From positions 1 to 64,000 of the forward strand of contig JAQXVT010000029.1 in NCBI GenBank assembly GCA_029225065.1: a DNA stretch of 64,000 bases, given 5' to 3'. This DNA comes from Lachnospiraceae bacterium. GTDB taxonomy: Bacteria > Bacillota > Clostridia > Lachnospirales > Lachnospiraceae. Made by a program: the position numbers and the translations under genes. Below, piece by piece: positions 11,369 to 62,533 of the stretch; position 1 is the first letter of the stretch; each line of letters starts with the position of its first letter. Below the pieces are notes generated by a model, which worked only from the letters and a program-made list of their open reading frames with translations, was not told the origin of the DNA and searched no databases.

Positions 11369-11674
11369 TTACTTCACAGTGACCGGAATCTGCTTTTTAA
11401 GTCCGCTCTTCATCGTACACGTAACGACGGCTTTTCCTGCCTTTACTCCTCTGATCGTTCCGCTTCCGCTCTTATTTTTCGTAACAGTGGTCACCGATGA
11501 ATTGCTGCTCTTCCAGGTAAAAGAGGACAGCAGAAATGACATATAATATCCATATTTTTCACAGCCGCGGTTCTTCCGGTCTACTCTGAGCTGATCTTTC
11601 TCTCCGACCTTAATCTCAGGTCTGTCAGAAGCACTGTATCCGTTTTGATTCAGATTGAAGCACAGCGCATCCAC
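11369..11674 (-). pseudogene. Short Ig-like (Big_2-type) domain fragment
   Basis: A 101-codon reading frame contains a short bacterial Ig-like domain: FTWKSSNSSVTTVTKNKSG then GTIRGVKAGKAVVTCTMKSG and a final strand. It has no signal peptide and its ATG overlaps the end of the GH127 gene by 25 nt, with no separate ribosome site. It therefore looks like the surviving C-terminal domain of a lost surface protein, or a former C-terminal extension of the upstream gene separated by a frameshift. Expression is doubtful. Confidence 0.5.
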
Positions 11675-13590
11675 ACGATCATCTCGCCCTCGCCGCGGTT
11701 GTTCCAGTACGGATACGGAACGGCGGTAAACTCCACGTCCTCAAGCTCCGGCTTGCGCAATCCGTAAAGGCCGCCCTTCCAGGAGGATTCCACGCCGCGC
11801 TTTCCTTTTCCTTTGATCACCACGCAGCCGCCAAACAGCTCCGAGCGCTCCTCTTCAAGCGGCGCATCGGTATCCGGGAAAATCCACGGAAGATTGGATC
11901 CGTTGTCGCACTCCTCGAGGCAGTATACGAGCGGTCCGCGCACGATCGCTGCCTTTCCGGCATCGGCACGCACCTGCGGATTCGCATAAACGTAATGCGC
12001 CGGTGTCTCAAATGCAGTCTCGATGCGGCAGTCCTTCTCCACGTGCAGCTTCCAGTAACCGTTTTCCGTGCGGCTGCCGACTGCTTCGCCGCCGATTGTC
12101 ATACGATAATTTTCCGCGTAATCCGGCACACGCACGAGCAGATCCATTCCATTCTCCGGCACATTTGAAAGTGCAAAGCGGACGCTCGGCTCCCACGGGA
12201 AACGTGTTTCCATGCAAACCTGCATTGCCTGTCCTTCTTCAAAAGCGATCTCCGTCGTGTTCGATACGAAAAGATTAACATACAGCTCGCGTTTTTTGTC
12301 GTCAACGGAGTAAATATACTGACCAAGCGATGCCAGCGTACGCGCAATATTCGGCGGGCAGCACGCTACACCAAACCATTTCTGGCGGATCGGTTTGACA
12401 TGCTTTTTGGAAGTGCCCGGCATACATGCAGGCGGCCACACCTCAAGCGGATTTACATAGAAGAAACTCTTTCCGTCAAGCGCAATGCCCGCAAGGACTG
12501 TATTGTAAAGCGCGCGCTCCACAACGTCCGCATAACGGGACTCCTTCGTGATCTGATTCATCCGCAGGCCAAACATCGCCAGTCCGATCGATGCACAGCT
12601 CTCTGAATAATTGTACTCGTTCGGCAGATCATAATCGACTGTGAATCGCTCCAGATGCCCTGACGAACCGATGCCGCCGGTTAAATACATGCGCTTCTGT
12701 GTGATATTCTCCCACAGCGTCTCGCAGGCTTTTTTCAGTCCGTCATCATCGTAAGCCTCTGCCAGATCCGCCATGGCGCTGTAAAGGTAAACGGCACGCA
12801 CCGCATGGCCCTCTGCCGTCTTCAGCTCACGCACCGGGCGGTCTGACTGAGAATATGCCGGCGTATAATCCGCAAACTCAGGGAAGATCATCTTATAATC
12901 CGGGCGGCTCATTTCCTTCATAAAATAGTTTTCTCCGACGCCGCGCGCATCGATGAAATACTTCGCGAGATCAAGATACTTCTGGTTACCGGTCACACGG
13001 TACAGCTTCACAAGTCCGATCTCGACCTCCTCATGGCCCGGATAGCCGTGAATTTTGCCTTCCTCCGTGCCGAACGTATCCGCGATCAAATCGGCAAACC
13101 GGCACATGCAGTCCAGGAATTTCCGTTTTCCGGTACCCTCATAATAAGCAACCGCCGCCTCCATCAGGTGACCGGCTGTGTACAGCTCGTGACCCTCGCA
13201 CAGGTCACTCCACCGTTTTTCCGGCTCTTTGATCGTAAAATACGTATTGATGTAGCCATCGTCGCACTGCGCCTCGGCAATCAGGTCAATGACCTCATCC
13301 GCCGTCTTCTCAAGCGCCGCGTCCGGATAGCACGCAAGTGAAAATCCGACTGCCTCCAGCCACTTTGCCACGTCGGTATCCTGAAATACCGCGCCGTAAA
13401 ATTCGCCCTCGCTTCTGCCCGCCGCAATGCGGAAGTTCTCCAGGCAATGGCTCGACTCCGCGTCCGGAATCCGGTCATTCATCGCCTCCCACTGATACGG
13501 AATGATTGCATTTCTTACCAGATCCACGTGCTTGGACCAGAACGGATCGTTGATCTGAATCTTTTTTAAATCAAGGGAATGTAAACGCAT
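11650..13590 (-). CDS. GH127 beta-L-arabinofuranosidase-type glycoside hydrolase
   Basis: This is a 646-residue protein without a signal peptide, so it is intracellular. The N-terminus (DPFWSKHVDLVRNAIIPYQWE by parts) and the all-alpha (alpha/alpha)6 barrel pattern fit GH127. Zn-ligand/catalytic motifs are visible: NEYNYSESCASIG (Glu and Cys ligands) near residue 325 and GVACCPPN near residue 407, where the first Cys of the pair is the known nucleophile of HypBA1-type enzymes. It would release L-arabinose from arabino-oligosaccharides taken up by the cell. The ATG follows AAGGAGAG. No sugar transporter is adjacent. Confidence 0.92.
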   Translation of the reverse strand: MRLHSLDLKKIQINDPFWSKHVDLVRNAIIPYQWEAMNDRIPDAESSHCLENFRIAAGRSEGEFYGAVFQDTDVAKWLEAVGFSLACYPDAALEKTADEVIDLIAEAQCDDGYINTYFTIKEPEKRWSDLCEGHELYTAGHLMEAAVAYYEGTGKRKFLDCMCRFADLIADTFGTEEGKIHGYPGHEEVEIGLVKLYRVTGNQKYLDLAKYFIDARGVGENYFMKEMSRPDYKMIFPEFADYTPAYSQSDRPVRELKTAEGHAVRAVYLYSAMADLAEAYDDDGLKKACETLWENITQKRMYLTGGIGSSGHLERFTVDYDLPNEYNYSESCASIGLAMFGLRMNQITKESRYADVVERALYNTVLAGIALDGKSFFYVNPLEVWPPACMPGTSKKHVKPIRQKWFGVACCPPNIARTLASLGQYIYSVDDKKRELYVNLFVSNTTEIAFEEGQAMQVCMETRFPWEPSVRFALSNVPENGMDLLVRVPDYAENYRMTIGGEAVGSRTENGYWKLHVEKDCRIETAFETPAHYVYANPQVRADAGKAAIVRGPLVYCLEECDNGSNLPWIFPDTDAPLEEERSELFGGCVVIKGKGKRGVESSWKGGLYGLRKPELEDVEFTAVPYPYWNNRGEGEMIVWMRCASI

Positions 13591-54344: not shown

Positions 54345-54743
54345 ATGCAGAGAAAATACAGCAGACAGCGCGAGGCGATCAAGGAGTTCCTGGATGGTCG
54401 TACCGATCATCCAACTGCCGACACGGTCTACACCTGCCTCCGCGAGCAGTACCCGAATATCAGTCTCGGCACGGTCTATCGAAATCTTACGCTCCTCACT
54501 GAGATGGGTGAGATCATGAAGATCACGACAGGTGAAGGTGCCGACCGGTTTGACACCAATGTGCAGCGGCATCACCATTTTATCTGCACCAGCTGTCAGA
54601 GTGTCTACGACCTTCCGGGCATGGGAAACATCGATTCCGTGATGGATACCGCAGCCGCCAGCTGCAAAGGACAAATCGATACGTACCGGATCAATTTTTA
54701 TGGAACCTGTGAGCATTGTCTGAAAACAAAAAATCCTTCCTGA
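54345..54743 (+). CDS. Fur-family transcriptional regulator, PerR-like
   Basis: This 132-residue protein has a winged-helix N-domain (KYSRQREAIKEFLDGRTDHP and PTADTVYTCLREQYPNISLG with TVYRNL) and a dimerisation domain with the metal-binding RHHHFIC motif and two CxxC pairs (CTSC and CEHC) that form the structural zinc site of Fur/PerR. Together with the downstream rubrerythrin, PerR-type peroxide sensing is the best guess. The ATG follows AAGGAGG; the frame upstream is not used. Confidence 0.9.
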   Translation: MQRKYSRQREAIKEFLDGRTDHPTADTVYTCLREQYPNISLGTVYRNLTLLTEMGEIMKITTGEGADRFDTNVQRHHHFICTSCQSVYDLPGMGNIDSVMDTAAASCKGQIDTYRINFYGTCEHCLKTKNPS

Positions 54744-54771
54744 GAATTTGCAAAAATTTTTCAATAAGGCC

Positions 54772-54819
54772 TTGACAATCAGATAGCGATGTGCTATATT
54801 AAAACAGTAATAGTTACTG
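54772..54819 (+). promoter_or_regulatory. Rubrerythrin promoter with palindromic operator
   Basis: TTGACA (54772-54777), 17 nt, TATATT (54795-54800) precede a perfect 15-bp palindrome CAGTAATAGTTACTG (54805-54819). Placement just downstream of -10 fits repression by the upstream Fur/PerR-type protein. Confidence 0.75.
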
Positions 54820-55007
54820 ATATTAATTAAATACTTCAGTACTTTTACTACACTGTTTCAGAACGAATAGCTGATCCTCAGCTTATCAGAAGAATCTACT
54901 TCCTCTGATACAGGCAGATTCATCCGCACAGCTGTGAAGAGAAATGACTGCCTGATTCGGTTAAAATAACAACATTTAAAATCAAAAAAGAAAAGGAGAT
55001 TATCACT

Positions 55008-55550
55008 ATGAAGAAATTTGTATGCAGCGTATGTGGATATGTATATGAGGGAGAAGCAGCACCGGAGGTCTGTCCGATCTGTAAAGCACCGGCTTCCAAA
55101 TTTATTGAGCAGTCTGCTGAGAAGACCTGGGCCGCTGAGCATGTAGTTGGTGTAGCATCTGACGTTCCGGAAGATATCAAGGCTGACCTTCGTGCAAACT
55201 TTGAGGGCGAGTGCTCTGAGGTAGGTATGTATCTTGCAATGGCAAGAGTTGCTCACAGAGAAGGATATCCGGAAATCGGTCTGTACTGGGAGAAAGCAGC
55301 TTACGAAGAGGCTGAGCATGCAGCAAAATTTGCAGAGCTTCTTGGCGAAGTTGTTACCTCCAGCACCAAGAAAAACCTTGAGATGCGTGTAGAGGCAGAA
55401 AACGGTGCTACCGCAGGCAAGACTGATCTGGCTAAGCGTGCAAAGGCTGCAAATCTGGACGCAATTCATGACACCGTACATGAAATGGCTCGTGACGAGG
55501 CTAGACACGGAAGAGCATTCGAGGGACTGCTTAAGAGATACTTCGGCTAA
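55008..55550 (+). CDS. Rubrerythrin family protein (rubredoxin domain first)
   Basis: This 180-residue protein has an N-terminal rubredoxin-like iron site (Cys 6, 9, 22 and 25 in [13 protein letters not shown] and EVCPICK) followed by a ferritin-like four-helix domain with the ExxH diiron ligands ([20 protein letters not shown] by parts, [20 protein letters not shown]). It detoxifies H2O2 or superoxide in anaerobes. The 3' end (55480-55552) is repeated at 61462-61534 and is the integration site of the following element; the gene itself is intact. Confidence 0.95.
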
Positions 55551-55552
55551 TC
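55480..55552 (+). other. Left attachment site repeat (attL), 73 bp
   Basis: The sequence from ATGAAATGGCTCGTGACG to TTCGGCTAATC is identical to 61462-61534. It is the last part of the rubrerythrin coding region plus 2 nt. Integration at the 3' end of a gene with exact duplication is the usual signature of a tyrosine-integrase element. The core crossover site within the 73 bp cannot be pinpointed. Confidence 0.9.
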
Positions 55553-55581
55553 TGCAAGCCGCATAAAATAAGGATTTTTAC

Positions 55582-55617
55582 GAGGGGAAATCACGAAAGT
55601 GGTTTCCTCTTTTTTTG
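55582..55617 (+). terminator. Rubrerythrin terminator (left copy)
   Basis: GAGGGGAAATCAC-GAAA-GTGGTTTCCTC then TTTTTTTT. A close relative follows the right repeat at 61566-61600, so the terminator sequence is also shared by both junctions. Confidence 0.85.
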
Positions 55618-55679
55618 CTGCTTCTGCTGATTTTTTATATTTCCTGTGTCCTTTGCGTGTCCTGCTCCCTTTTTGAAAA

Positions 55680-55835
55680 TCCTAAATGCAAGAAAATGTG
55701 TCCTTTAAAAATGTGTCCCGCATTTTAGTTGTTCTCTGTCATATTTACAGGCTGTAAAAGTGTCCCTTGTGTGTCCCACTGCCTTTTGTCAAGTCCAAAA
55801 GTAAGAAAATGTGTCCTTTAAAAATGTGTCCCTAA
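55680..55835. repeat. Direct repeats near the left end, possible integrase arm sites
   Basis: AAGAAAATGTGTCCTTTAAA followed by AATGTGTCCC occurs twice (about 55690 and 55805). The core AATGTGTCC also occurs at 61345-61353 as its complement near the right end. Arm-type sites like these are known for Tn916-type integrases. Confidence 0.55.
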
Positions 55836-55837
55836 AT

Positions 55838-56446
55838 TTAATTGTTTTCAGTCATGTTTACAAGTTTATAAAAGCTTGTTCTTTTGGTATTTGTCTGTTC
55901 CATTGCGGTCTTTGCAGTAATCTCTCCCGCTTTCCAAGAGGAATAGACTTCATTCCAGTTTTCGGGAAATGTGAGTGCGGGACGTCCAAGACGTTTTCCG
56001 TTCTGTTTGGCTGCTGCAATCCCCTCTGCTTGACGCTGTTTGATTGTTGTGCGTTCTTGTTCTGCGATTGTTCCTAATACTTCAATCAGAATGTTGTTCA
56101 CCATCTCAAAAACCCACTCTTGCCCCTCTGGTAAGTCCATCATAGTAGTTGGCAAGTCAATCACTTTCAAACGAATGCCGTTGTCTTTGAAATACTGCAA
56201 TTCGTTGTGAATGTCACTTTTGTTTCTGCTCAATCTGTCAAGGGATTTTACAACAAGTGTATCGCCGCGGCGCAGCATGGCATTTTTTAATGCTTGATAA
56301 CCTTTTCTGTCTAAATCTTTTCCGCTTTCCTTATCTGTGATAATATCCCTTTCATCTGCTCCAAGAGCCTTGAAAGCTGCTATCTGACGGTCAAGGTTCT
56401 GTTCTTTACTTGATACTCTTGCATAATAGTATGTGCGGCTGTTCAT
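55838..56446 (-). CDS. Serine recombinase (resolvase/invertase family)
   Basis: This 202-residue protein has catalytic Ser12 in YYYARVSSKEQNLDRQ, DRLSRN and the conserved EQERTTIKQRQAEGI end of the catalytic domain, followed by a short HTH region (TAKTAMEQTNTKRTSFYKL). It could act as an invertase or resolvase within the element. ATG at 56446 follows GGAGGGCGC. Its promoter carries TTCGTA/TACGAA repeats, suggesting self-regulation. Confidence 0.92.
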   Translation of the reverse strand: MNSRTYYYARVSSKEQNLDRQIAAFKALGADERDIITDKESGKDLDRKGYQALKNAMLRRGDTLVVKSLDRLSRNKSDIHNELQYFKDNGIRLKVIDLPTTMMDLPEGQEWVFEMVNNILIEVLGTIAEQERTTIKQRQAEGIAAAKQNGKRLGRPALTFPENWNEVYSSWKAGEITAKTAMEQTNTKRTSFYKLVNMTENN

Positions 56447-56476
56447 GTTTGCGCCCTCCCATTTCCTTATGTTCGT

Positions 56477-56520
56477 ATTATATCAAAAGTGTTCGTAAAT
56501 ATCAATATATTTTACGAATA
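56477..56520 (-). promoter_or_regulatory. Promoter of the serine recombinase gene with TACGAA boxes
   Basis: TTGATA (56500-56505), 17 nt, TATAAT (56477-56482). TACGAA occurs three times in and around the promoter, twice as an inverted pair, making a likely operator for autoregulation. Confidence 0.6.
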
Positions 56521-56607
56521 TGTTTGTAAATATAAAAATAACTTTCTCGAACATAAAAATACACGCTATTTTGCGTGTTTGTAAAGGTGTACTCTTGCGA
56601 ACAGATA

Positions 56608-56640
56608 AAATAAGGAGCAGGCCGCGCACCCTGCTCCTTA
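56608..56640 (-). terminator. Terminator of the secreted protein gene
   Basis: AATAAGGAGCAGG and CCTGCTCCTTATT form a stem in the gap after the 56677 stop; on the minus strand it is followed by TTATC. Confidence 0.7.
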
Positions 56641-56676
56641 TTCACTACAGTAAATTTCAATCTATTTTCATTTGAT

Positions 56677-57945
56677 TTACTCTTCTGTAAATTCGTGTAA
56701 CGGCATATTATTTTCATCATATAAGACAATCATCATAGCTGGGCCATTTCCAGACGCTCCACATAACAAATAATATCCATCGTGATCTAATGATTTAACT
56801 TTATACTTATTTTCCGCTTTTGCGGGCGCCACTGTACGAATCAGTTCTCCATTTTCTATTCTCCAACTTCCATTAATTTCAGGCCAATTTGGATTTATTT
56901 CCTCCCTTGTGCGATAACTGTCATCTGTTCCAAAACGTCCAAGCTGTTTTGTATTACCATCTGCGTCATATTCATAAAGATCTCCTGCACCTGGCGTTCC
57001 AGCTAATACAGGATTAACCAGATAATATCTAAACCTACAGGGGAAAATAGCTGATAACTCTTCTTCTGTTAAATCCTCAAATTCATCTGCATGACCATTA
57101 AAATAATAATATCCGCTTTCATAATTATTATCTGCATCTGCATGATTCACATAAGCTGCGATAAAATCAGTTTTGGATTTTATAACACTTTCTGCTTTTT
57201 CCAGATGCGCATCCGCTTTCTGATCTTTAAATCTTTGTTCTTGCCCCTCTGCATCTAAAGGTTTTTCCAAATTATTTTCATCAATAATTTTTTGAAAATT
57301 TCCTGCTTCTAAAGTAAATTTATACTTTGAAGAACCTATTTCAACAATACAACGAACATCATTTCCTTCATATAAATCTTTTAACAGTAATTCTCCATTT
57401 CTTTCAAAACCAGTTACACCCATTATTACTGGATTTACTAAAAGATCGCTGTTATCTTCATTTCCTATTAAAATATACTCTTCGACATCCTCACCAACTT
57501 TTGTCTTCAGAATCATATTATCCGATTTCAAATGTGTAGCAGGCGTTTTATCATATTCTAATAGTCTGAATTGTACATTATATGCAGAAGTAGGATATGT
57601 AAGAGTATTCCTAATTAAAGTAGCATTATCAGATATAAAATCGCTGCTATATGCAGGAACGCCCATTGTAATAGATGCCACTACTGTCAAATTACTCTCA
57701 GCCGTCGCCGTGTTGCTGAAAGTTCCCGATACGACCGATCTTATAGCAGATTCACCTGTAGCATCTCCAAATTCATCAACCACCTCTGTATTTTCCCAGC
57801 TTCCGACACTGTCATCCTCTAAACCAGAAATATTTGCTTCTGCATAAGCCTTTTCTACATTCAACGTAAAAACAGTAGAAAAAGCGACCGTTCCAATAAG
57901 CATTGTTGAAAAAAGCGTTTTAAATATATTTGTGCATTTTTTCAT
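56677..57945 (-). CDS. Secreted protein of unknown function, element cargo
   Basis: This 422-residue protein has a clear signal peptide (residues 1-35, ending VEKAYAEA). The rest is hydrophilic with a few Cys; there are three similar-looking beta-rich stretches with N-E-D-N/G-type turns and VNPVIMGVTGF or VNPVLAGTPGA repeated (residues near 170 and 320), suggesting an internal duplication. I recognise no domain. As the only non-mobilisation gene of notable size in the element it is the likely cargo. ATG follows GGGAGGATGG. Confidence 0.7.
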   Translation of the reverse strand: MKKCTNIFKTLFSTMLIGTVAFSTVFTLNVEKAYAEANISGLEDDSVGSWENTEVVDEFGDATGESAIRSVVSGTFSNTATAESNLTVVASITMGVPAYSSDFISDNATLIRNTLTYPTSAYNVQFRLLEYDKTPATHLKSDNMILKTKVGEDVEEYILIGNEDNSDLLVNPVIMGVTGFERNGELLLKDLYEGNDVRCIVEIGSSKYKFTLEAGNFQKIIDENNLEKPLDAEGQEQRFKDQKADAHLEKAESVIKSKTDFIAAYVNHADADNNYESGYYYFNGHADEFEDLTEEELSAIFPCRFRYYLVNPVLAGTPGAGDLYEYDADGNTKQLGRFGTDDSYRTREEINPNWPEINGSWRIENGELIRTVAPAKAENKYKVKSLDHDGYYLLCGASGNGPAMMIVLYDENNMPLHEFTEE

Positions 57946-57999
57946 TATCCATCCTCCCGCAATCCTCTATTCGTTTTTTTCATTGCATTCATTTCTTTT

Positions 58000-58191
58000 T
58001 CAAACATTATCTTGCATTAAATTATTAACCGCCAGTCTCACATTCAGCGGTACACCTTTCATCTGTATGTATTTCGATACAGTGCTTGCACTACGTCCAA
58101 TAGCACGCGCAACGGCGGCATAATTACCAAGCTGCGCATATAAACGGTACATTTGAACGATTTCCTGCGGTGTTACACGCGGCGCGCCCAT
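58000..58191 (-). CDS. Small helix-turn-helix protein
   Basis: This 63-residue protein (PRVTPQEIVQMYRLYAQLGN by parts, YAAVARAIGRSASTVSKYIQ) has a Hin/homeodomain-like HTH typical of small regulators. The ATG overlaps the stop of the upstream 58191-58490 gene (TAATG), so the two are translationally coupled. It may control the element. Confidence 0.75.
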   Translation of the reverse strand: MGAPRVTPQEIVQMYRLYAQLGNYAAVARAIGRSASTVSKYIQMKGVPLNVRLAVNNLMQDNV

Positions 58192-58490
58192 TACTTTTTA
58201 TCAATAGTCGCAGTGTCAGCAGAAATATTACTTTCGCTAGTTGCAACTGACTCAGCGGCACCATTCGATTTTCTGGCACGTGTAGTGGTCTTTGCATTTG
58301 ACTGTGTCAGTAAACGGTTATCCGTATCATTCATTGCAATTTCAAATGACTTTTTAATACGGTCGATTGCTTTCACTGGTTTTGCACCATATTTTTCCAG
58401 TTTTTCGTTTTCCTCCATAATTTTCTTGAAAAAATTGTCTGGAATAATAACAATGTCTCTGTCAAGATCAATAGTCACACGCATTTTCAT
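58191..58490 (-). CDS. Small protein of unknown function in the element
   Basis: This 99-residue protein begins MKMRVTIDLDRDIVIIPDNFF, followed by a basic helix-rich stretch and a Ser/Thr/Ala-rich tail. No family recognised; possibly a partition or regulatory partner of the small HTH protein. The ribosome site AAGGAGG lies 8 nt before the ATG. Confidence 0.55.
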   Translation of the reverse strand: MKMRVTIDLDRDIVIIPDNFFKKIMEENEKLEKYGAKPVKAIDRIKKSFEIAMNDTDNRLLTQSNAKTTTRARKSNGAAESVATSESNISADTATIDKK

Positions 58491-58967
58491 TTCCTCCTTA
58501 GAATAATATTTTATGTATTTTGCATAAAATTTGCACTTTTAATTATATATATATATATATTCTGTCAATATGCAGTATGCATAGTATTTAATATTATCAA
58601 AAATCATCTTAATAAAGCTTATTTCTTTTCTCATTTTTGTTATTTCGTTGTAATAAGGTTTATTTCAATGAAATAAGCCTATATCATATCTTATTTTTAT
58701 CTATTTAGCGCGATTAGGCTTAAATAAGGCTTATTTTACGATAACGGCAAATAAAAATACCTTTTCGTGTCGCGGTTATCCACGCATAAGCCGCGTCACG
58801 CATAAAAATAATATTTTTCCCGAAATAGGGGCGGGGGGTGGCAGCAGGTTTATTGTATTCTCCTGCCAAGTTAAAACGCCCTTTATTTTATTCAAATAAA
58901 AAATTTTGTTATAATATGTTCATAAGAAAAAGAAATTTCTTAAATCTAAAAGAAAGGGGGATACCGT
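58491..58967. other. AT-rich origin-like region in the element
   Basis: It contains repeated AAATAAGCCTTATTT-type palindromes (at about 58617, 58660, 58690 and 58725), a DnaA-box-like TTATCCACG (about 58779) next to GCGTCACGC and a G-rich run. No gene. It resembles iteron origins of plasmids or ICEs and may allow replication after excision. Confidence 0.45.
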
Positions 58968-59219
58968 ATGTTTGGTGACAACGGATTTACTTATCAATTT
59001 GCTGAATTTCTGAGAAAAGCAGGAGATGTAAATTTATCATATACATTCCAAAAGGAAATGATGAATCAGCAACTTTATAAGCAATTAGAGCATGAACAAA
59101 TTGTCCACGAAGTAACCGAAGAAGTTTTATCACGTTTAAATACAGCAGTTGACACGCAAGAGATATTTAACAAAATAGATGGACTAAACGACAAAATAAA
59201 CAGTTTAGAACGTAAATAA
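58968..59219 (+). CDS. Small protein of unknown function in the element
   Basis: This 83-residue protein (FTYQFAEFLRKAGDVNLSYT by parts, with a C-terminal LNDKINSLERK coiled coil) has a good AAAGGGGG ribosome site and looks coding, but I cannot assign a family. Confidence 0.6.
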   Translation: MFGDNGFTYQFAEFLRKAGDVNLSYTFQKEMMNQQLYKQLEHEQIVHEVTEEVLSRLNTAVDTQEIFNKIDGLNDKINSLERK

Positions 59220-59277
59220 GAATACACTGGCGGGCGGTTCTGCCGCCCTGCCATTCCAATAGAAAAGAGGTTTATAT

Positions 59278-59781
59278 ATGCCTTATACAGTACCTAATCA
59301 GCGTACCGTATTCATTCATAGAAACATGCTTTTAAATGATTTCTTAGGAATACAAAACGCAAACTGGCAAGCTGCGGCGCGCGACTTAGGCGCACACGCG
59401 CTCATGCTTTATTTATATCTTGCGTCTAATGCTAATAATTATGAGTTTGCGCTCTCACCTGCTGCCATAAGGCAGGCAATAGGAATGCCTGCGTCTACTT
59501 ATCGCGACCAATTTGTAAAACTGGTAGATAAAGGGTATCTTGTGCAGCGCAAGGAAAGTAATATCTATGATTTCTATGAAATACCACAACGCGTCACGCA
59601 TACAGAGCCAATAGAAACGATTGACGGCTTAGACTTTACGGCTGACGCTTATGGAACGCCGCAAACCGTAAATAACGAAGCGGGAAAGGATATAGAAATA
59701 AATATAAATAAAACAGATACTATAAATATTAGCGGCGTGGAGAAACAAGTTTCTCCTACGCCGATACAATTCAATTTTTAA
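59278..59781 (+). CDS. Winged-helix protein, possible replication initiator-like
   Basis: This 167-residue protein has an N-terminal winged helix (AARDLGAHALMLYLYLASNA by parts, SPAAIRQAIGMPASTYRDQF by parts, LVDKGYLVQR), which resembles the N-domain of RepA/DnaD-type replication proteins and phage regulators. The C-terminal third is Asn/Ile/Thr-rich and disordered. Lying next to an origin-like region, a replication role is inferred. ATG follows AGAGG. Confidence 0.55.
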   Translation: MPYTVPNQRTVFIHRNMLLNDFLGIQNANWQAAARDLGAHALMLYLYLASNANNYEFALSPAAIRQAIGMPASTYRDQFVKLVDKGYLVQRKESNIYDFYEIPQRVTHTEPIETIDGLDFTADAYGTPQTVNNEAGKDIEININKTDTINISGVEKQVSPTPIQFNF

Positions 59782-59796
59782 AGGGGAGAACTCACT

Positions 59797-59991
59797 ATGA
59801 CAGAAAAAGAAATGTTAGGAACTTTACAACTTGTTTGGGATAATATGGGCTTACAAATGCAAGATAGAGAAGTATGCGGAGAAATGCTTGTACTTCTGGA
59901 TAATATGTATCATCTTTTACATGACGATTTACAGTGTCCTTATCCTGTGCGTAAATATGAGATAAATGAGGGTGGAGTATTTGATTTCTAA
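59797..59991 (+). CDS. Small protein of unknown function in the element
   Basis: This 64-residue acidic protein (EMLGTLQLVWDNMGLQMQDR by parts) follows the winged-helix gene by 15 nt with a good GGGGAGA ribosome site, so it is likely in the same operon. No family recognised. Confidence 0.6.
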   Translation: MTEKEMLGTLQLVWDNMGLQMQDREVCGEMLVLLDNMYHLLHDDLQCPYPVRKYEINEGGVFDF

Positions 59992-60107
59992 TAGCTTTAA
60001 AATAAGCGGGAAGCCTTGCGCGTCCCGCTTTTCCTTTGTATAGATAAAATATCCGTCTGCTGCTGCCGCGTGCCGTAAATAGCCGTTTCATGCGTCACAC
60101 GCTTATT

Positions 60108-61319
60108 TTATATAGCGTTTAAATTTCTTACAAGAATATCAATTCCAGACTTTGAAACTGCAAGATAATAACGCTCTGTGACTTTTCCGCTTGCGTGTCC
60201 CATCTGATTACAAAGAATGTGTGTAGGTGTATTTAACTCTGCAAGCCGCGTGCCGTATGTATGGCGCAGATAGTGATATTTAAAGTCTATTTTTAATGCT
60301 GTTTTGATTGTTCGGCTGTGATATTTCATAGAATTTACAGTCTGTATTTTTCCGTTCGATAAACTGTTTACTAATTCTAAAGATGAAATTTTGTTACCGT
60401 CAACATCATAAATATAAGTGCAATTTTGCGCCCGCTGCGCCTTTAAATCAACCTCATGCGCTTTTGTTTCTGCCGCAAGTCTTACAAAATAGTCTTTTAG
60501 CTTCTGGCTCATATATATTACACGCCGCGCGTTGCGCGTTTTCAGCGGTACAAGTTTAATCAAGCCATCTTGATACTGCATTTGTCGGTCTATAGTTATT
60601 CTGCCGTTCTCAATATCAACATTTTCCCATTTCAAGCCGTAACACTCATTGATACGCAAGCCACAGCACTTTCCCAACAGATAAGCGGTTTCTGCATTTG
60701 TGCCTTGAAAATAAGTGTCAAGGCGTTCTGTTTCTTCTTTGCTGAATGCTACAATTTCGGTATCTTCATCAATCTTCATTTTCGGCATACGAATCCGAAC
60801 ATCTTTGTTTACACATAATTTGTTATATACATCTACGTCTAAATAATTGCGGGAATACGCCTGTCCGAATATCAGATAGAACATTTTCAAAAAACCCTCT
60901 ACATACTTATAAGCGCGTCCCTCGTTGTAATACAGAAAAGAAAGATAGTCATTTACTTCCGCAACAGAAATGCTGTCAACATAGCGCGAACCAAATTTTT
61001 CTTCAAGATGATTTTTCCATAAGCTGTTTTGTTTCTTTATCGTGGAATATGCTTTTCCGCTGCGCCCCTGTTCGCAATATTCCATGTAAACCTCTCCAAA
61101 AGTCATGCGGTGTTCTGGCTTCTGGTTCAGACTTGCTTCAAAACGCATTTCTGCAATCGCTTTTGCCTGTGCTGCTGCCCGCTTTGTTTTCAAAGGGTTT
61201 CCCGCTTCATCTTTTGAGCCTTTGCGATTTACTCTTTTCCCATCAACTGTTTTTGTGAAACGATAGCACCAGTTTCCGTTTGGTAATTGAGATATTCCTA
61301 AATCCTGTGTTTTTGTCAT
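60108..61319 (-). CDS. Tyrosine site-specific integrase
   Basis: This 403-residue Tn916-like integrase has an N-terminal arm-binding segment, a core-binding SAM-like domain (about 70-180), and the catalytic domain with Arg in CCGLRINECYGLKW (near 220), Lys in LKTRNA, H-x-x-R in YHYLRHTYGT (near 350), His in MGHASG and the Tyr nucleophile in ERYYLA (near 383). All residues are intact. It lies about 140 bp from the right repeat and probably catalyses integration at the rubrerythrin gene and excision. No excisionase gene is recognised, though the 63- and 99-residue genes are candidates. Confidence 0.95.
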   Translation of the reverse strand: MTKTQDLGISQLPNGNWCYRFTKTVDGKRVNRKGSKDEAGNPLKTKRAAAQAKAIAEMRFEASLNQKPEHRMTFGEVYMEYCEQGRSGKAYSTIKKQNSLWKNHLEEKFGSRYVDSISVAEVNDYLSFLYYNEGRAYKYVEGFLKMFYLIFGQAYSRNYLDVDVYNKLCVNKDVRIRMPKMKIDEDTEIVAFSKEETERLDTYFQGTNAETAYLLGKCCGLRINECYGLKWENVDIENGRITIDRQMQYQDGLIKLVPLKTRNARRVIYMSQKLKDYFVRLAAETKAHEVDLKAQRAQNCTYIYDVDGNKISSLELVNSLSNGKIQTVNSMKYHSRTIKTALKIDFKYHYLRHTYGTRLAELNTPTHILCNQMGHASGKVTERYYLAVSKSGIDILVRNLNAI

Positions 61320-61461
61320 TTTTGTCGCCCTTTCCTGTGTTCTGGGGACACATTTTTTAGGATTTTTCTTTTACTTTTGGAGACACCTGTGTTTCTTATA
61401 AAAGATAAGAAATCCTTTATAATACAAAGGTTTTGAAGTCACGAGCGAAGCGAAATGACTT
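61320..61461. other. Right end of the element, possible arm sites
   Basis: GGACACATT (61345-61353) and a similar GAGACACC (61379-61386) are the inverse of TGTGTCC repeats at the left end. They lie between the integrase start and the right repeat, as expected for integrase arm sites. Confidence 0.5.
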
Positions 61462-61534
61462 ATGAAATGGCTCGTGACGAGGCTAGACACGGAAGAGCAT
61501 TCGAGGGACTGCTTAAGAGATACTTCGGCTAATC
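61462..61534 (+). other. Right attachment site repeat (attR), 73 bp
   Basis: Exact copy of 55480-55552. It contains the last 23 codons of a rubrerythrin gene without its beginning, so it is the duplicated target and not a gene. Confidence 0.9.
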
Positions 61535-61565
61535 AGAAAATTTCATAAAATAAGGACTTTAACGA

Positions 61566-61600
61566 GAGGGAATCACGGGAGTGGTTCCCTCATTTTTTAT
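61566..61600 (+). terminator. Terminator at the right junction
   Basis: GAGGGAATCAC-GGGA-GTGGTTCCCTC then ATTTTTTA. It resembles the left copy at 55582 and is probably the chromosomal rubrerythrin terminator. It also faces the LysR gene from the other side. Confidence 0.75.
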
Positions 61601-61603
61601 TTC

Positions 61604-62533
61604 CTACTGTTTATTATCCAATGCTTTATGAAGGGATGAGATGAACAACTGAGCAATTTTCGGCAAATAGGTATCTTTTTTATAAACTGCTGCCAGTGGC
61701 CAGTGAAAATCCGGGTCATCCACCATAAAGAATGTGACCAGCCCAGGATGGCTGCATACCTTTGCCCCTTCTGCAGGTACAAAAGCACAGGCAACATTTC
61801 TGGCCACCAGATTAATGGCAGTGGTAAGGTTTCCCGTATCCATTAATATCTGTGGTTCCAATTGATTTCTGCTAAGAAAATATTCGATTTCGTAGGTAAG
61901 ATTCTGTCCCGGTTTCGTAATAATAAGCGGAAGCTGCGTTAGAATATCAATGGGTGCAATTGGATAAAAATTATGATACTTACAGTTCTGTAACAATTCT
62001 TGAATGGCGGGATGTGTGGTAGGGGCCGCAAGAAGAATAGGTTCTTCTATGATTTTTTCACAGGTAAGTTTCCCATAATTCAGATTATGAGGAAGGTTCA
62101 TGACCGCCAGGTCTATGTTGTCATGAAGAAGAGCTGCTTCCAGCTGATTGGAACGGCCTTCAAACAATTCTATTTCAATGCCAGGATATTTTTCATGGAA
62201 TTCCGGATAAACCTCAGGAAGAAGGCAGGCTCCGCGCCAAAGAGCAATCCCAAGGCGAAGACGACCACAAATATCATTTTTAATATCATGAAATTCTTTC
62301 AGCAGTTCTTTATCCATTTTCTGAAGCTGTAATACATGGCGGTAATAACGCTCCCCGGTAAAAGTAAGCTTTAAAGGAGAGGTACTCCTGTCAAACAATT
62401 CAACCCCAAGGCTTTTTTCAAGGCGTTTTAAATACTGGCTAAGTGCCGGTTGAGTCGTGTACAGTATCTGCGCAGCTTTTGTCAGATTTCCTACTTCAGC
62501 GATAGTTAGGAAATATTCATAATTATGATTCAT
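61604..62533 (-). CDS. LysR family transcriptional regulator
   Basis: This 309-residue regulator has the N-terminal HTH (YFLTIAEVGNLTKAAQILYTTQPALSQYLKRLEKS by parts) and a C-terminal effector-binding domain. It is more AT-rich than the host backbone. ATG at 62533 follows AGAGGTGC. It is divergent from the SLC13 relic and 2-hydroxyacid dehydrogenase genes and probably controlled them, likely responding to an organic acid. Confidence 0.92.
   Translation of the reverse strand: MNHNYEYFLTIAEVGNLTKAAQILYTTQPALSQYLKRLEKSLGVELFDRSTSPLKLTFTGERYYRHVLQLQKMDKELLKEFHDIKNDICGRLRLGIALWRGACLLPEVYPEFHEKYPGIEIELFEGRSNQLEAALLHDNIDLAVMNLPHNLNYGKLTCEKIIEEPILLAAPTTHPAIQELLQNCKYHNFYPIAPIDILTQLPLIITKPGQNLTYEIEYFLSRNQLEPQILMDTGNLTTAINLVARNVACAFVPAEGAKVCSHPGLVTFFMVDDPDFHWPLAAVYKKDTYLPKIAQLFISSLHKALDNKQ

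Follow-up and report, generated by a model that had tools for sequence, protein, structure and literature searches.

The stretch analyzed here, referred to as the window, comprises 64,000 nucleotides of a Lachnospiraceae bacterium (assembly GCA_029225065.1, contig JAQXVT010000029.1, positions 1 to 64,000 of the forward strand) and carries, at the 3' end of a rubrerythrin gene, a segment bounded by two 73-bp repeats (Table 1). Rubrerythrin is a conserved oxygen-defence gene of anaerobes. The segment encodes a tyrosine integrase, a resolvase-type serine recombinase, a cargo protein, a helix-turn-helix (HTH) protein, a replication-initiator-like (Rep-like) protein and three small conserved proteins. 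We consider it very probable that it is a plasmid-like integrative element of 5,982 bp, that its cargo is exchangeable and that its tyrosine integrase takes the rubrerythrin 3' end as its chromosomal attachment site (attB). An earlier note on this DNA had proposed an integrated element that leaves the rubrerythrin 3' end whole, and relatives of the element strongly support this through the site preference of the integrase, the conservation of the carried gene end by codon position and a patchy presence in the genus, each of which, like the repeats, was established by sequence comparison.

The repeats are identical over all 73 bp, as the earlier note had stated, and their similarity continues further (137 nt at 90%), across a terminator-like stretch. 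The left repeat covers the last 23-24 codons of the rubrerythrin open reading frame (ORF); beyond the crossover, the 3' end of this ORF was probably supplied by the element. The terminator-like stretch after the left repeat was probably brought in by the element as well, and the stretch after the right repeat is probably the terminator that the host's rubrerythrin gene had originally. When the host genome was searched with 241 bp containing the repeat, no third site was found, only the places at 55480 and 61462.

An intact tyrosine integrase beside the right repeat and a serine recombinase beside the left had also been claimed, and both were found there. Residues R222, H349, R352, H375 and Y385 of the integrase, which we take to be its catalytic residues, are invariant in 6 aligned sequences. 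Its best profile match among solved structures is the 'Int protein' of 6en0, presumably of the Tn1549 type. The closest solved sequence to the serine recombinase is 2r0q (Tn552 bin3; Sin group; E 4.5e-28). The dyad upstream of the serine recombinase gene is readable by eye in 6 of 8 aligned elements, and the layout of this region suggests a res site.

Table 1. Features of the rubrerythrin-associated element and its flanks, in window coordinates (aa, amino acids).
Feature	Coordinates	Strand	Remarks
Rubrerythrin host gene, 180 aa	55008..55550	+	ORF; PF21349 (RUBY_RBDX), PF02915 (Rubrerythrin)
Left 73-bp repeat (attL)	55480..55552	+	Identical to 61462-61534
Terminator-like stretch after left repeat	55553..55616	+	Diverged relative of 61535-61598
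Six TGTGTCC copies in 187 bp, candidate integrase arm-type sites	55645..55831	+	Clustering at left end
Serine recombinase, resolvase type, 202 aa	55838..56446	-	PF00239 E 1.6e-31; phrog_125 DNA invertase
Res-like region upstream of serine recombinase	56470..56603	.	Dyad GTTCGTAAAT..ATTTTACGAAT at 56491-56519; further half-site pair at 56576-56603
Cargo, 422 aa, signal-peptide-like start, no known family	56677..57945	-	Start read by eye
Helix-turn-helix protein, 63 aa	58000..58191	-	PF13936 barely above cut-off; cluster 15, 5 elements
99-aa protein (p99), conserved in the sub-family	58191..58490	-	Cluster 12, 7 elements
AT-rich divergent intergenic region, putative replication origin or origin of transfer (oriT)	58491..58967	.	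AATAAGNNTTATT-type repeats; one TTATCCAC at 58776
83-aa conserved protein	58968..59219	+	Cluster 18, 4 elements
Replication-initiator-like protein, 167 aa	59278..59781	+	phrog_270 E 3.7e-9
64-aa protein, conserved beside rep	59797..59991	+	50-52% in L055-L058 and L094
Tyrosine integrase, 403 aa, rubrerythrin-targeting family	60108..61319	-	PF00589 E 3e-14, PF14659; adjoins right repeat
TGTGTCC, candidate arm-type site at right end	61346..61352	-	One copy
Hairpin AAGTCA..TGACTT, loop core GAGCGAAGCGAA	61436..61461	+	Abuts right repeat, between integrase and repeat
Right 73-bp repeat (attR)	61462..61534	+	Identical to 55480-55552
Terminator-like stretch after right repeat	61535..61598	+	Part of 137-nt repeat at 90%

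The element had been described as compact and unclassified, which understates it, since its integrase is one of a large family. When species genomes were scanned with this integrase, 90 relatives were obtained, of which 80 were kept and 74 are evaluable, the other six having <300 bp beside the integrase. Searching other genomes for the integrase had been suggested in the earlier note; in 66 of the 74 evaluable loci, a rubrerythrin 3' end was found at a distance of 124-422 bp from the start of the integrase. Within the host family, 8 of 299 genomes besides the host have an integrase relative (E <=1e-60, 40-64% identical), and all eight relatives adjoin rubrerythrin sequence; five of these loci are the same records as in the species-genome scan, so that the two counts overlap. 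A limit relaxed to 1e-25 brought in a single broken fragment, with no rubrerythrin match in its 3.3-kb locus. Judged by their sequences, dozens of related, differently loaded elements land at the same rubrerythrin end in gut Clostridia. Both ends are present in 30 relatives, L109 of Oribacterium sp. KHPX15 among them, and in the window, and these relatives span 2,393-11,030 bp, a range bounded by the 10-kb flank at which larger elements are cut. One relative, L064, is complete by position and is included in the both-ends, codon-agreement, gene-content and arm-repeat counts, but several ORFs within it resemble genes for phosphate uptake, a reading that draws also on PhoU and PBP family matches not assigned to individual proteins, and it may be chromosome between two rubrerythrin genes. 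Several sites hold more than one rubrerythrin end, and at L090 four 3' ends stand in a row near one integrase (11392-13250, reversed coordinates), which suggests that insertion there took place repeatedly.

In the 31 complete elements, comparison of the left with the right copy over the final 16 codons shows agreement at 471/496, 489/496 and 359/496 sites at codon positions 1, 2 and 3, respectively (95.0, 98.6 and 72.4%), and agreement falls to 41-48% after the stop codon. This pattern indicates that the carried gene end evolves as coding sequence, as it would have to in order to serve as the functional end of the host gene. Integrase-side homology starts around ATGAAATGGC in the window and several relatives. 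Variation at third positions is lowest in the interval that begins ~51 nt and ends ~39 nt ahead of the final base of the stop codon, and our guess is that the crossover takes place in this interval; a position close to the MARDEARH codons is predicted.

Of 47 genomes in the genus, 3 contain the integrase, and it is in these three that a partial rubrerythrin 3' end lies beside it. The rubrerythrin query matched 36 other genus genomes, from which 29 loci were fetched; the earlier note had pointed to close relatives as a place to look for an uninterrupted gene, and in 28 of the 29 the rubrerythrin alignment stops no more than two codons short of the end. Among these 28, L033 comes from a carrier, G334. 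The remaining locus, L034 of genome G302, has an assembly gap of Ns (1791-2044) that coincides with the attachment core within rubrerythrin, as a population in which only some cells carry an element would produce. Other odd rubrerythrin matches in the genus are a near full-length one on a second contig (G332), a partial one across an assembly gap (G302) and one of 27 bases (G319). In the window and in the fetched genus loci alike, rubrerythrin has Fur and/or TrxR genes as neighbours. In many pairs the element genes are more alike than the host rubrerythrin genes; between the window and L094, DNA identity is 76.0% for the integrase, 77.5% for the serine recombinase and 63.5% for rubrerythrin. 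The integrase tree places the window in a 100/99 clade with Oscillospiraceae hosts and mixes host families, a mixing that is no proof of transfer.

The gene order int-rep-p99-HTH-cargo-resolvase is the same in L057, L058 and L094, with a different cargo. The cargo protein of the window has no significant match in Pfam, PHROGs, NCBIfam or solved structures, and among 299 family genomes it was found in one, its own. Its distant relatives in L101 and L128 are 26-27% identical, and L116 holds two stretches 28-33% alike to it on the outer side of its integrase. The earlier note had called the cargo secreted; a start resembling a signal peptide is present, and secretion is a by-eye reading of the sequence. 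A relative of the Rep-like protein in L052 (48%) matches phrog_270 (E 2e-9), the DnaD-like helicase-loader phrog_186 (E 1e-8) and HTH families. No relative of the Rep-like protein was found among 72,556 plasmids.

Larger rubrerythrin elements (e.g., L070, L078, L079, L096 and L118) carry adjacent paralogous proteins of ~145 aa, often together with a WYL regulator; 41 copies of these paralogues were counted in 22 loci, and the two of them that were scanned have no Pfam match. Restriction-modification and other defence families are found among 57 proteins of elements and partial loci (alignment A2); in loci that lack a left boundary, the genes may lie inside or outside the element. The family scans of larger relatives cover, among the matches listed, 25 of 57 and 25 of 192 families, and transfer or phage genes are possible there.

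An origin-like region had been noted in the element, and it was recovered as a putative origin in the AT-rich divergent intergenic region, where a block at ~58740-58840 is conserved in relatives and holds CCCGAAATA at 58819. Judged by its position and conservation, the region may function as a replication origin. A DnaA box with AATAAG repeats was considered as a family-wide origin signature and rejected, as the exact TTATCCAC and AATAAGNNTTATT, present in the window, occur in none of 5 relatives tested. The CCCGAAATA motif (58819-58836) is followed by GGGGCGGGG in the window, by GGGGGCGGGG in L094 and by TACCCCGCC-like sequence in several relatives; compared with the last of these, the first two look as if the G/C tract were reversed.

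Candidate integrase arm-type sites are clustered at the ends of the element. TGTGTCC has 7 of its 11 window copies at the element's two ends, and 5.0 copies are expected over the whole window. Short motifs that recur three or more times at the left end and are found at the right end too are present in 22 of the 31 complete elements, against a shuffled mean of 0.13 and an interior control of 0.

Immediately beside the right repeat lies a hairpin whose stem covaries at 7 of 7 pairs in 6 chosen sequences. The general motif, a variable stem with a GA-NN-GNA-NN-GA loop located -3 to +5 nt from the repeat, is present at 11 of 67 right ends (the window and ten relatives) and absent from the other 56; all 11 occurrences in 1.30 Mb of loci are there, and shuffled right ends gave 0.0. 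A further 0.45 Mb of fetched loci had the hairpin only in the overlapping window and L127 copies and once in L054, away from its attachment copy, and the fetched loci of two genus carriers (L151, L152) do not have it. A looser test, whose limit the six-pair stem of the window does not reach, gave 13 of 67 right ends versus 0.85 in shuffles and added L111, L113 and L121. Two other copies of GAGCGAAGCGA in the host genome form no hairpin, and an Rfam search of 54500-62000 returned one sub-threshold match, taken as chance. GCGNAGC is an unusually stable DNA mini-hairpin. It is conceivable, though unlikely, that we are dealing with a large undescribed plasmid-like family specialized on rubrerythrin, in part of which a GNA-triloop hairpin abutting the core of the element's own attachment site (attP) serves as a signal of the single-stranded-DNA type; the integrase, a relaxase or RNA polymerase would act on the hairpin form, so that integration would follow single-stranded entry or be tied to oxidative stress.

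For the integrative element proposed above, attP would carry a copy of the last ~24 codons of the gene together with a terminator. Recombination within this copy would give the host gene a complete, element-supplied 3' end (attL) and leave the original 3' end of the host gene beyond the element, at attR. The integrase may also excise the element as a circle, which would be replicated from the AT-rich region by the Rep-like protein, and the resolvase would resolve multimers at the res-like site. Because no transfer gene was found, spread from cell to cell would occur by way of a co-resident conjugative element, a phage or DNA uptake.

Several observations weigh against this account. The comparison sample holds one genome per species, the uninterrupted targets being those of other species in the genus, and many hosts are metagenome-assembled genomes, in which binning errors may fake host jumps. 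Eight of the 74 evaluable loci are without a second rubrerythrin copy where one is expected: L126 and L129 have no copy at all, and in L062, L095, L116, L120, L123 and L132 rubrerythrin sequence is present at another place in the locus. In some pairs the order of identities is reversed, as between the window and L062 (integrase 67.6%, serine recombinase 49.8%, rubrerythrin 75.3%). A comparison of terminators among genus relatives did not distinguish the host's own flank from the element flank. The Rep-like protein, so designated from profile matches, has no significant match in Pfam or NCBIfam, and among the 31 complete elements only 8 have this Rep and 21 the serine recombinase, with a Rep_trans-like protein in 2. 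The arm-repeat test was failed by 9 of the 31, including the close relatives L057, L058 and L094.

The earlier note had seen no conjugation or phage structural genes, and this holds for the eight element proteins, which contain no relaxase, type IV secretion system, coupling protein or phage structural family in Pfam, PHROGs and NCBIfam. Weak PHROGs matches of the cargo to a minor tail protein (E 0.15) and of the 63-aa HTH protein to terminase small subunit phrog_4044 (E 0.099) were dismissed as noise; the latter protein matches many HTH families. Neither a Tn3-type transposase nor terminal inverted repeats were found in the element. A weak Rep_trans match was obtained for L049, one of the scanned relatives, and a 33% relative of it is present in L050. 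The earlier note had inferred a small mobilizable or satellite element. One such reading is a relaxase-less mobilizable element of the iOriT type, in which the conserved intergenic block would be an oriT, nicked by a relaxase that a conjugative element resident in the cell supplies, and the Rep-like gene would only maintain the circle. We regard this as a possible but minority explanation. Passages of PMC11389934 present iOriT elements as a recognized class. A conserved non-coding block, ~GGAAACGGNNACGG...CTCCCGAAATATACCCC, recurs at the equivalent intergenic position across the sub-family of the window and in a few elements with different genes, such as L070, L085 and L127. Relaxase PF03432 is found elsewhere in 20 of 30 genomes searched, in 19 of them, host included, over the cut-off; it is on no element-bearing contig in these genomes (L064 left out; PF03389 and other MOB families not searched genome-wide). 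Against an oriT, the block sits where an origin would sit, and CTCCCGWAATATACCCC occurs in 0 of 299 family genomes, which speaks against its exact form as a common oriT beside resident relaxases, if weakly, since the window and L127 copies differ. A looser form of the block was found in twelve viral contigs that looked unrelated, and the proposal that the conserved CCCGAAATATACCCC block is an oriT gained no support from the viral-contig or 299-genome searches.

The size, the integrase and the lack of structural genes would also fit a phage satellite packaged by a helper phage, as would the weak terminase-small-subunit match of the HTH protein, and satellites integrate at gene ends according to passages of PMC10111431. 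We think this quite unlikely, as no significant terminase, capsid-remodelling or AlpA/primase match was found in the window element with the three databases, and a search of IMG/VR with the integrase gave only two weak, short matches. Its relatives in plasmid and phage collections are ~21-26% identical among the matches listed (10 of 39 and 10 of 132 records), the phage integrases at ~23-26%. Phage records MT837799 and MT837586, which matched the repeat, look like chromosomal contigs with rubrerythrin sequence and were discarded. An immobile remnant of a larger integrative and conjugative element or prophage is very unlikely. The lack of transfer genes would agree with decay, as would an in-frame stop in the integrase of L005/L048 and the case of L120, where little but an integrase adjoins rubrerythrin; in the window the integrase ORF is uninterrupted, and L057, L058 and L094 share its compact gene order, which argues against remnants, since these would not decay to the same gene set. 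That the repeats arose by duplication of the rubrerythrin gene or as an assembly artefact is scarcely credible: the genome is a draft in 88 contigs, but the second copy is the 3' part only and stands beside the integrase start, in the 66 loci already mentioned, across many assemblies.

Our preferred explanation, a plasmid-like integrative element, would add a seemingly undescribed attB in a protein gene, along with an integrase family that is widespread in gut Clostridia, which are difficult to manipulate. For site-specific delivery into these hosts, the integrase together with the 73-bp core is a candidate, and the cargo of the family is exchangeable. Draft genomes can be searched for such elements by a rule that follows from the family: an additional rubrerythrin 3' end situated 124-422 bp away from the start of an integrase. 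The earlier note knew of no described family with a rubrerythrin target, in agreement with our literature searches: in the passages of open-licence full texts found on rubrerythrin together with integration or mobile elements, no description of rubrerythrin as an integration target was found. The rubrerythrin passages among them concern oxidative stress and the spore coat and none is about integration, and the word rubrerythrin does not occur in the passages of PMC6907783, PMC10111431 and PMC5704250.

The element resembles several known systems in part. It shares repeats at both ends and, through its best solved-structure match, an integrase with the group of 6en0 relatives, but differs from that group in having a defined gene-end target and no conjugation module. 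We take the group names to be Tn916/Tn1549. Target choice in the Tn916/Tn1549 group is loose. Passages of PMC5704250 describe integrative mobilizable elements of Firmicutes that are likewise small, with a tyrosine integrase, cargo and, in some members, replication initiators for the excised form; unlike these, the window element was found to have no relaxase. The iOriT elements, in the passages of PMC11389934, are also integrated and without a relaxase of their own, and the window element would likewise depend on helpers; it differs in carrying a Rep-like gene and a resolvase, and its oriT is putative. In phage-inducible chromosomal island (PICI)-type satellites, as passages of PMC10111431 describe them, one integrase clade likewise uses one attB, and attP usually carries a replacement gene end; the window element differs in having no convincing satellite gene, and its target is an ordinary cell gene. 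Among plasmids, the circular 5.2-kb pRGF00006 (HG796773), although without a tyrosine integrase among its ORFs by eye, is alike in encoding a 63% identical serine recombinase and a 33% identical Rep-like stretch. This plasmid is presumably of rat gut origin, and we take its 381-aa ORF to be a Rep_3-type initiator.

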